Assembly (NCBI GenBank): GCA_017694425.1
Contig: JADIMX010000089.1
Span: 1 to 32,169, forward strand
DNA: 32,169 bases
Reading direction: 5' to 3'
Source: Candidatus Fimicola merdigallinarum
Lineage (GTDB): Bacteria > Bacillota > Clostridia > Lachnospirales > Anaerotignaceae
The notes under the pieces were generated by a model. It was not told where the DNA came from and made no database searches. It was given only the letters and a program-made list of their open reading frames with translations. The position numbers were made by a program, and so were the translations under genes. Below, piece after piece: positions 15,590-17,804 of the stretch (the stretch's first letter is position 1; each line of letters begins with the position of its first letter).

Positions 15590-16825
15590 TTAATCATCTA
15601 AAAGAAACTCGTCCAAATCTTTTTCAAGCTGGTCTCTTTCATCTTTTACTGTTTTTAACTCTTTTAAAAGTTCATCTTTTTCTTTTTCAAGCTCATCTTT
15701 TTTCAAAAGCTCAGCTCTAAGACTTTCAACTTCTGATAAAAGTTTTGAATTTTTTTCTTCATATTCATCTATCTGATTTTTTACAGAATATAAAGCATCT
15801 TTTTCACTTTTTACACTCTCAACCTCAAGTAAAAGAGCATTATTTTTTTCTTCGTACTGTCTTATTAGTTCTTCTAATTTTTGTACTTCAGAATTATCAG
15901 ATTTAATAGTTTCAATTTCCATTGAAAGCTGATTATTTCTATTTTCAGCCTCTTTTATCTGATTTCTAAGAGTTTCTATCTGTTTGTTTTCATCTCTTAC
16001 ACTTTCAATTTCTTTTACAAGCTGACTATTTTTACCCTTAAATTCATCTATCTGAGATTTTAAAGCTGTTATCTGTTTATTTTCATTTTTGATATATTCA
16101 ATCTCATTTAAAAGATAAGAATTTTTATTATTTGCATCTTTTAGCTCAGCCCTAAATTTCTCAATTTCTCTGTTAGCATTTTTAAGGCTCTCGACTTCTT
16201 GTGTAAGACGATTATTTTTGTCGTTTGCCTCAGCTATCTGATTTCTAAGGCTTGCTATTTCTTTATTTTCATTTCTTACACTCTCGATTTCCTGTGTAAG
16301 ACGATTATTTTTGTTGTTTGCCTCTGATATCTGTGTTCTAAGGTTTGCTATTTCCTTATTTTCGTTTCTTACGCTTTCTATTTCCTGTGTTAAACGATTA
16401 TTTTTATTGTTTGCCTCAGCTATCTGATTTCTAAGGTTTGCTATTTCCTTATTTTCGTTTCTTACGCTTTCTATTTCCTGTGTAAGTTTACTGTTATTAT
16501 CAATAGCCTCTTTAAACTTAACTTTAAGGTTTTCAACTTCCTCTTTTGTAAGTGTAAATCCCTCATAACATTTTAATTTATTAACTTTTTCAGAAAGAGC
16601 AATATTCTTATCTCTTTCCTTAAAATATTCATCTGCAATATTTAAAGTTGTAAGTATAGAAATCATCTGCATACCTACACCTTTAGGCTCTTCTTTCTTT
16701 TTTATATCAGAAAACTTTGAATTTATGTAATCTGCTACCTTTTTTATATATAATTCAGACTCCTCACCTGATATGGTAAAGGTCTTACCCTCTATTGTTA
16801 CCTGAACTTTATTCTTCATCGACAC
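15590..16825 (-). CDS. zapA: Cell division protein ZapA-like with a long tandem-repeat coiled-coil extension
   Basis: 411 aa; N-terminal ZapA pattern (KVQVTIEGKTFTISGEESELYIKKVADYINSKFSDI...MISILTTLNIADEYFKERDK) followed by about eight 31-aa repeats. Confidence 0.85.
   Translation of the reverse strand: MSMKNKVQVTIEGKTFTISGEESELYIKKVADYINSKFSDIKKKEEPKGVGMQMISILTTLNIADEYFKERDKNIALSEKVNKLKCYEGFTLTKEEVENLKVKFKEAIDNNSKLTQEIESVRNENKEIANLRNQIAEANNKNNRLTQEIESVRNENKEIANLRTQISEANNKNNRLTQEIESVRNENKEIASLRNQIAEANDKNNRLTQEVESLKNANREIEKFRAELKDANNKNSYLLNEIEYIKNENKQITALKSQIDEFKGKNSQLVKEIESVRDENKQIETLRNQIKEAENRNNQLSMEIETIKSDNSEVQKLEELIRQYEEKNNALLLEVESVKSEKDALYSVKNQIDEYEEKNSKLLSEVESLRAELLKKDELEKEKDELLKELKTVKDERDQLEKDLDEFLLDD
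16201..16490 (-). repeat. 93-bp in-frame tandem repeat array inside zapA
   Basis: The element gtgtaaga(c)/gtgttaaa recurs at 16201, 16294, 16387 and 16480, each 93 bp apart, with high nucleotide identity between neighbours. Confidence 0.9.
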
Positions 16826-16910
16826 CGTTCCTTCGCATCTAATTTGACTATTTTATTATACCATAAAAACATAATATATATAAATAAAATTTTCTTAAAA
16901 TTTACAAATG

Positions 16911-17016
16911 AAAAAAGGTCAACTGCCGATGTTGACCTTTTTCCACAAAGAGAAGGTATTTCTTATTGGGATTGTAGCTTAAAAGCTACTTTGTGAAAAT
17001 ATTGGGGAGTTTTCAC
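16911..17016 (-). ncRNA. Candidate small regulatory RNA, about 106 nt, with its own promoter and intrinsic terminator
   Basis: Minus strand TAGACA-17-TATAAT, predicted TSS G at 17016, two small hairpins, C-rich loop CTCCCCAATA, terminator AAAAAGGTCAAC-ATCGGCA-GTTGACCTTTTTT. No ORF. Confidence 0.7.
16912..16942 (-). terminator. Strong intrinsic terminator of the candidate sRNA
   Basis: 12-bp perfect stem AAAAAGGTCAAC/GTTGACCTTTTT with 7-nt loop. Confidence 0.9.
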
Positions 17017-17022
17017 AATGCT

Positions 17023-17051
17023 ATTATATCAAAATAGTCTGTTTATGTCTA
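17023..17051 (-). promoter_or_regulatory. Sigma-A-type promoter of the candidate sRNA
   Basis: Minus strand -35 TAGACA (17046-17051), 17-bp spacer, perfect -10 TATAAT (17023-17028). Confidence 0.75.
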
Positions 17052-17064
17052 CAAAAATTTTATT

Positions 17065-17712
17065 TTAGCTATTATACTCAGCAAGGACTTTGGCAAGCTC
17101 ATACTCACCTTTTATAATTATTCCGTCATTAATTCTTACCTGCTCCTCTTGGGTTAGAGTTGAAACCGGAGTTTCTGTTATTTCATATAAGGTTCTCTGA
17201 CTTTCGCTATCCTCATAATAAACTGCAATATATCCGTCTTTTTGAGTTACAACAAAGTTTTCATCATTTTTCGTATCTACTATTTTTCGCATAACAACAC
17301 GTTTTCCGGAAAATGATACTATTTGCCAATCCGGATAATATTCAAGCATATCATTAAAATCAAAACCTATAAGAAAATATGGTGGTACTTCTTCACTTTC
17401 CTCTAACAAACTTTCATCTTTATAATAATACTGATAAACCATTTTTGTTGATTCGCTTATTTTATTATCTGCTATAACCATTTCAAGCTCATCATTATCA
17501 TTAATTTCTGTATCTACACTAACTTTTTTATTTGAATCTTCTTTACTTTCCTCTTTATCTTCCTTGTAGGCTTCCTCAATTCTTTTCATATTTTCTGCCA
17601 TCTTTTTATTATTAACACTATCTATATACATATAAAATCCCATTCCGAAAAGGGATACACAAATTATAATACATAAAGCAGAAAGCACATAAAATAATCT
17701 TTTATCTGTCAT
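17065..17712 (-). CDS. Membrane-anchored BofC C-terminal-domain-like protein
   Basis: TM anchor, linker, then MVYQYYYKDESLL..PPYFLIGF..YPDWQIVSFSGKRVVM..DGYIAVYYED..ITETPVSTLTQEEQVRINDGIIIKGE. AAAGGAG supports the start at 17712 (MTDKRLF) rather than 17763. Confidence 0.7.
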   Translation of the reverse strand: MTDKRLFYVLSALCIIICVSLFGMGFYMYIDSVNNKKMAENMKRIEEAYKEDKEESKEDSNKKVSVDTEINDNDELEMVIADNKISESTKMVYQYYYKDESLLEESEEVPPYFLIGFDFNDMLEYYPDWQIVSFSGKRVVMRKIVDTKNDENFVVTQKDGYIAVYYEDSESQRTLYEITETPVSTLTQEEQVRINDGIIIKGEYELAKVLAEYNS

Positions 17713-17804
17713 AAAAATCACTCCTTTAAAGTAATTATTGACATCAAAAAAAATAATATACAAAATAGATTATTAATTATTTTTTTCATTACAGAATAAT
17801 TATA

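Follow-up and report, generated by a model that had tools for sequence, protein, structure and literature searches.

A conserved small RNA gene of the Lachnospirales with an invariant pyrimidine-rich core and predicted glycolytic targets

What lies between the BofC-like gene and zapA in Candidatus Fimicola merdigallinarum, and what might it do? The window analysed here is a stretch of 32,169 nt (contig JADIMX010000089.1 of assembly GCA_017694425.1; order Lachnospirales, family Anaerotignaceae), and an earlier note made from its letters had proposed that the minus strand between these two genes encodes a small RNA (sRNA) of about 106 nt directed at Shine-Dalgarno (SD) sequences. On comparative grounds we have hardly any doubt that this sRNA is a genuine conserved RNA gene. 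For the locus as a whole, the explanation that we favour with modest confidence is a stand-alone, trans-acting sRNA that would act by SD pairing on glycolytic mRNAs and that in one branch of the order would itself answer to the glycolytic repressor CggR. No regulatory RNA family described in Rfam or in the literature searched matches the sRNA.

The promoter and the terminator that the note had read between the two genes, TAGACA-17-TATAAT and a 12-bp intrinsic terminator, are both present as described (Table 1). The promoter agrees with the consensus at 11 of 12 positions, and TG precedes its -10 element. A plain promoter scan gave 21 matches where 12.8 were expected, so that the promoter claim is carried by conservation and not by the scan. 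A simple scan for terminators missed the one of the sRNA because its rules expect a T run 3' of the stem, and here the Ts lie within the stem; the fold and the conservation favour a terminator. From 17016, the predicted RNA would read GUGAAAA-CUCCCCAAUA-UUUUCAC, AAA, GUAGCU-UUUA-AGCUAC, AAUCCCAAUAAG, AAAUACCUUCUCUUU, GUGG and then the terminator, ending at 16911. Every sequence statement that the note had made about this layout, with its two hairpins, CUUUGUG and the terminator, was verified, and CCCAAUA does occur twice. The segment 16911-17016, whose fold the note had also singled out, is far more stable than its shuffles (minimum free energy -34.2 kcal/mol, z = -7.0; 0 of 200 shuffles equally stable), and the sequence is present as a single copy in its own genome.

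DNA-level matches to the sRNA of the window were found in 52 of 145 relatives. Forty-eight homologues were aligned, and a covariance model was searched over 295 genomes of the order, with matches in 163 Lachnospirales genomes from 65 of 129 genera; the window copy was returned at 16911-17016 with an E value of 7.9e-21, from a model that includes the window sequence. In a class-wide sample, all 11 matches of the model fell inside the order, and there were zero among about 280 Clostridia from other orders. Among the named carriers are Anaerotignum species, Tyzzerella sp. An114 (of the window's genus) and Clostridium sp. MD294 ASF356. Some genomes hold two copies, namely G144 (L207 and L208) and G205 (L212 and L213, the second of which is shortened), and genera g3 and g9 of family f1 had the sRNA in none of their sampled genomes, a natural knockout set for target co-evolution. 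The note had been unable to assign the RNA to a known family, and this held: Rfam 15 gave no match at the gathering threshold and none that was usable at E<=10 for 16800-17150 or at E<=1 for 19 homologue loci, and neither the window nor distant homologues matched the models of 6S RNA, tmRNA or other Rfam housekeeping RNAs. Searching the literature by sequence words and by topic returned no earlier description; a table of 3161 RNA candidates from the gut microbiome (PMC8040213) may contain the sRNA.

The note had looked to conservation and covariation in relatives for support, and both were found: the promoter, the loop and the terminator are conserved, and hairpin 2 and the terminator carry many compensatory changes in the 48-homologue alignment, with a covariation score of 0.347 against 0.185 ± 0.009 for shuffles. 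Overall, the structure pairs in 88.8% of cells; shuffles reach 79.5%, and sliding the arms gives no more than 53.3%. Hairpin 1 allows no covariation test because its sequence is almost invariant. Mean identity among the homologues was highest in the core AAAUACCUUCUCUUU (0.98), followed by the loop (0.90), the second CCCAAUA stretch (0.84) and hairpin 2 (0.61). Hairpin 2 is extended in families f12 and f17, where it bears one more C-rich loop, CAUCCCUCAA; in f6, a large family, and in others, the 5' arm pairs with UUUUUGCUAC instead, the loop contains CCCCCCAAUAC and the AAAUACCUUCUC core is kept; in L035-type copies, a 5' GUGG is paired with a distant CCAC. These rearrangements among families indicate that the helices are evolutionarily flexible and that the single-stranded pyrimidine segments are the conserved part. 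The note's choice of the C-rich hairpin loop as seed was sound as far as exposed C-rich segments go, but it overlooked the true core, whose conservation exceeds that of the loop. It was also correct that within the window CACAAAG (16995-16989) is able to pair with CUUUGUG (16950-16944). The two alternative conformations that it built on this pairing did not hold up, as the helix pairs in 62.3% against 62.2% in shuffled columns and shows no covariation; we rejected the switch as a conserved feature, since full pairing is impossible in most genera and is confined to a few close relatives.

Candidate targets were ranked in Clostridium sp. ASF356 (2.4 Mb, 2333 called genes), where start regions were scored against the three pyrimidine segments and gene names were assigned from protein sequences. 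Among the 2333 ribosome-binding sites (RBSs), the core placed fba at rank 1, pgi at 6, gap at 20, ppdk at 40, and eno and ptsI both at 50. For nine Embden-Meyerhof-Parnas (EMP) genes, the sum of log ranks was 42.6 with the core and 60.5 ± 3.3 with shuffled motifs (best 51.3), so that the core beat 160 of 160 shuffles; the anti-SD, the loop and the second CCCAAUA segment gave sums of 58.3, 63.3 and 62.1, respectively. A test matched for SD strength gave a combined p = 2e-4 for the EMP genes, and none of 3000 matched sets was as extreme; these values are optimistic because the set was picked after the ranked list had been viewed. We rejected the loop and the second CCCAAUA as glycolysis seeds, as neither gave a signal in this ranking and the core alone of the three scores.

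Across genomes, a pattern search with TATTGGGGAG found no gene recurring across genera. A family-wide search for the core complement beside ATG found the tpi RBS GAAAGAAGGTATTTTATTATG in genus g7 and an identical string in two g10 genomes. Over 28 related loci, the pairing energy at the tpi RBS was stronger than in 200 of 200 shuffles, and complementarity was retained among tpi orthologues though their sequence changes; tpi offers a partly independent line of target support. For eno, 4 of 200 shuffles did equally well in the cross-locus test. Of 55 genomes, 16 (that of the window included) have the gap RBS AAGAGGAGG, which permits a 9-bp pairing with the core that contains one G-U pair; the canonical AAGGAGG precedes gap in two genomes only. 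Together, the complementarity computed between core and RBSs exceeds controls in one genome and, for tpi, family-wide, with partial evidence from gap, and the note's proposal of an SD-targeting regulatory RNA in the manner of RsaE/RoxS is the best reading of the data. A trans-acting, SD-pairing role is very probable from these comparisons; as for glycolytic mRNAs being the main targets, the balance tips only slightly in favour.

A second link to glycolysis comes from the promoter. In Bacillus subtilis, the CggR operator TGACGGGACGTTTTTTGTCATAGCGGGACATATAATGTCCAGCAA (CGGGACGTTTTTTGTC...CGGGACATATAATGTCCAGC) amounts to CGGGACN6TGTC twice, its right half is bound about 100-fold better than its left, and fructose-1,6-bisphosphate (FBP) or dihydroxyacetone phosphate (DHAP) releases CggR (PMC11229326). 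In genera g7, g8 and g17, the opposite strand of the sRNA -35 element and spacer reads CACGTGGGACAAAAAATGTCTAGC or close variants. GTGGGACN6TGTC had 65 matches in 55 genomes. In 15 of the 55, the sRNA promoter has an exact copy that ends up 17-19 nt ahead of the RNA, and 19 of the matches, spread over 16 genomes, precede the second gap gene by 159-224 nt. The site is also found in the sRNA promoters of L027 and L031, and with one or two mismatches in the g10 copies. Given its presence at both places, gap and the sRNA gene seem to have an operator in common in these bacteria. ASF356 has a CggR-family gene (PF21715, 5.9e-25) directly before pgk-tpi-gpmI-eno, with GTGGGACN6TG twice at the start of cggR, and its sRNA promoter is without the site. 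We consider putative CggR control likely for the Anaerotignum branch, and do not extend it to the window copy. We make no operator claim for TTTGTGCACACTT, found at the -35 of other families, which coincides with a plausible -35 element.

Several further sites were noted in passing. Paired GTGGGACN6TGTC sites stand 41 bp apart upstream of the second gap gene in G032:C83, G054:C67 and G011:C39, a spacing twice the ~20 bp that separates the B. subtilis CggR half-operators. At G054:C61:4490, the same sequence lies 106 bp upstream of fba, and the operator may extend to fba there. In L042-L049 and L201-L216, the -35 region reads TTTGTGnACACTT and is conserved beyond a plain -35, possibly as the site of another regulator.

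In the mechanism that we propose, the sRNA would be transcribed from its own promoter, and its pyrimidine-rich segments, chiefly AAAUACCUUCUCUUU, would pair in the cell with purine-rich SD regions and so block the start of translation, the likely main targets being the fba, pgi, gap, eno and tpi mRNAs. In Anaerotignum-type genera, a rise in FBP or DHAP would cause CggR to leave the gap and sRNA promoters, sRNA levels would go up, and the raised sRNA would pair through AAAUACCUUCUC with several glycolytic RBSs and limit their translation. The outcome would be a feedback brake on the synthesis of glycolytic enzymes that grows with flux. More tentatively, and as an idea that we hold to be somewhat less probable than its converse, an ancient Lachnospirales sRNA with one anti-SD-like seed may have formed a flux-sensing loop, through CggR in the Anaerotignum-type genera, with the promoter rewired elsewhere and the seed kept.

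A number of observations weigh against this account. The glycolysis set was selected post hoc, once the ranking in a single genome had been seen; the target tests gave no core signal for pfkA, pgk, gpmI or pyk; the complementarity at eno is limited to some genera; and of the 16 genomes with the gap site, 15 carry the sRNA, an association with p = 0.04 only that is phylogenetically confounded. Genome-wide, long complementary matches were not in excess over shuffles. Purine-rich RBSs are common in highly expressed genes, an effect that matched controls reduce and do not remove. At the promoter, no CggR site was found at the sRNA in the window's genus or in the g11 sRNA promoters, and by inspection one half-operator is visible where CggR normally uses two, occupied by a tetramer. 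Some of these points would also be expected if the sRNA paired with SD regions of broad or non-glycolytic targets and the signal merely reflected the RBS style of highly expressed genes, a possibility that gains from the many other genes that are also top-ranked, along with the late choice of gene set and the missing excess of long matches. We think this unlikely, though it is the rival to be taken most seriously: the SD-matched and anti-SD controls fail to reproduce the signal, the tpi orthologues retain complementarity with changing sequence, and the CggR operator provides a link between the gene and glycolysis that does not depend on target prediction. Near-invariance of the core in nearly 50 diverse sequences could instead reflect binding of a protein, such as an RNA chaperone or a translation factor, to the pyrimidine-rich single strands in place of mRNA pairing, and poly-pyrimidine strands are plausible protein sites. 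That alternative is improbable, as the core matches RBSs beyond shuffled controls and the neighbourhood suggests no protein partner.

The sRNA lies between two genes, and the BofC-like gene keeps its place upstream of it in families f1, f12 and f17. This position would also fit a cis element of zapA (a leader, an attenuator or a riboswitch) or a 3' end processed from the mRNA of the BofC-like gene. Against this stand a strong promoter and a terminator of its own, kept independent of any one downstream gene, and a promoter that persists where the upstream gene differs. The downstream gene changes between genera (a tRNA in L033, other genes elsewhere), and zapA, which has its own promoter-like site at 16884-16855, follows the sRNA only in the window's genus g1, which rules out a zapA leader; we regard a cis-acting role of any of these kinds as highly improbable. 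Even less credible is an mRNA for a tiny protein from the 5' GUG. In the window GUG AAA ACU CCC CAA UAU ... UAA is open for 17 codons, but it has no SD, the length changes of hairpin 2 do not preserve the frame (counts by remainder 24/12/8), and the homologues place its end at 21 different codons. With the GUG frame not conserved, a peptide has a close to negligible chance.

Table 1. Coordinates of the sRNA, its segments and its neighbours in the window.
Feature	Positions	Strand	Basis
sRNA locus, promoter to terminator	17051-16905	(-)	sequence inspection, fold
sRNA gene, ~106 nt, predicted +1 (17016) to terminator U run	16911..17016	(-)	fold, covariance model, homologues
sRNA promoter, TAGACA-17-TATAAT	17023..17051	(-)	promoter scan; position kept among homologues
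Hairpin 1, GUGAAAA / UUUUCAC, 7 bp, extreme 5' end; missing or rearranged in some genera	16993..17016	(-)	fold, alignment
C-rich loop CUCCCCAAUA, first CCCAAUA copy at 17006-17000	17000..17009	(-)	mean identity 0.90
Hairpin 2, GUAGCU UUUA AGCUAC; sequence and length vary, covarying	16974..16989	(-)	fold, alignment
Unpaired AAUCCCAAUAAG, second CCCAAUA copy at 16970-16964	16962..16973	(-)	sequence, alignment
Invariant core AAAUACCUUCUCUUU, proposed seed against SD regions of glycolytic mRNAs	16947..16961	(-)	identity 0.98; target tests
Intrinsic terminator AAAAAGGUCAAC-AUCGGCA-GUUGACCUUUUU(U), 12 bp, covarying stem	16911..16942	(-)	sequence, fold, covariation
BofC-like protein, upstream neighbour; BofC_C slightly under Pfam cut-off; stop 17065	17065..17763	(-)	profile match, conserved neighbour
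zapA (long coiled-coil form), downstream neighbour; open reading frame start 16825	15590..16825	(-)	adjoins sRNA in window genus only

Among the closest known systems is RsaE/RoxS of Staphylococcus and Bacillus, about 100 nt long, which uses C-rich single strands to pair with SD sequences, has its C-rich element in duplicate and is linked to central metabolism; FsrA and CsfG of B. subtilis and the CRR sRNAs of Staphylococcus aureus also have multiple single-stranded C-rich regions (PMC4409812). The sRNA of the window is of similar size to RsaE/RoxS and has several C-rich loops or single strands (CUCCCCAAUA, AAUCCCAAUAAG and AAAUACCUUCUCUUU, with CAUCCCUCAA in f12 and f17). It does not match RF01820, the Rfam model of RsaE/RoxS, even among matches at E<=10 for 16800-17150 or at E<=1 for the 19 homologue loci; its core is UACCUUCUC where theirs is CCCCUUUGUU, and its duplicated element is CCCAAUA where CCCCUUUGUU is duplicated in theirs. 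Transcription in that family is activated by ResD/SrrA (ResD for RoxS), whereas the present family is found in Lachnospirales only and has a CggR-type site in one branch. As both the model and the repeat element failed, we did not place the sRNA in the RsaE/RoxS family. With FsrA, CsfG and the CRR sRNAs it shares C-rich regions, but no sequence relation was found and their regulators are others.

Glycolysis also connects the sRNA to SR1 of B. subtilis, which is controlled by CcpN. SR1/SR1P is linked to glycolytic control and GapA (PMC8501984, PMC8152036). Both RNAs are tied to glycolysis, but here there is no conserved open reading frame corresponding to SR1P, and a CggR-type site is found instead. 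Spot 42 is a sugar-responsive sRNA that restrains carbon metabolism, and it and SgrS are Hfq-dependent and have other targets. SgrS is likewise a sugar-responsive sRNA restraining carbon metabolism in enteric bacteria (PMC4021124), and in sequence and hosts both are unrelated to the sRNA of the window. With the CggR regulon (the gapA operon), the likeness lies in the GGGACN6TGTC operator, which in the same genomes is also upstream of gap; the difference is that one half-operator overlies the sRNA core promoter, in contrast to two halves downstream of the promoter of a protein operon.

Lachnospirales account for much of the gut microbiota and of the sugar fermentation in the gut. The sRNA occurs in roughly half of the order's sampled genomes, has a 15-nt invariant core and offers both targets and a regulator that can be tested. 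If the proposed mechanism is true, glycolysis in Lachnospirales would be under post-transcriptional control, and the sRNA would be a clear case of one seed kept order-wide while its promoter control was rewired.

Two observations concern the neighbours. The BofC-like gene lies directly upstream of the sRNA in three or more Lachnospirales families, and this adjacency suggests a very old gene order. The zapA product of the window is 411 aa long, with a ZapA domain and a long coiled coil of near-identical repeats (NNRLTQEIESVRNENKEIANLR), compared with about 87 aa for the ZapA model.
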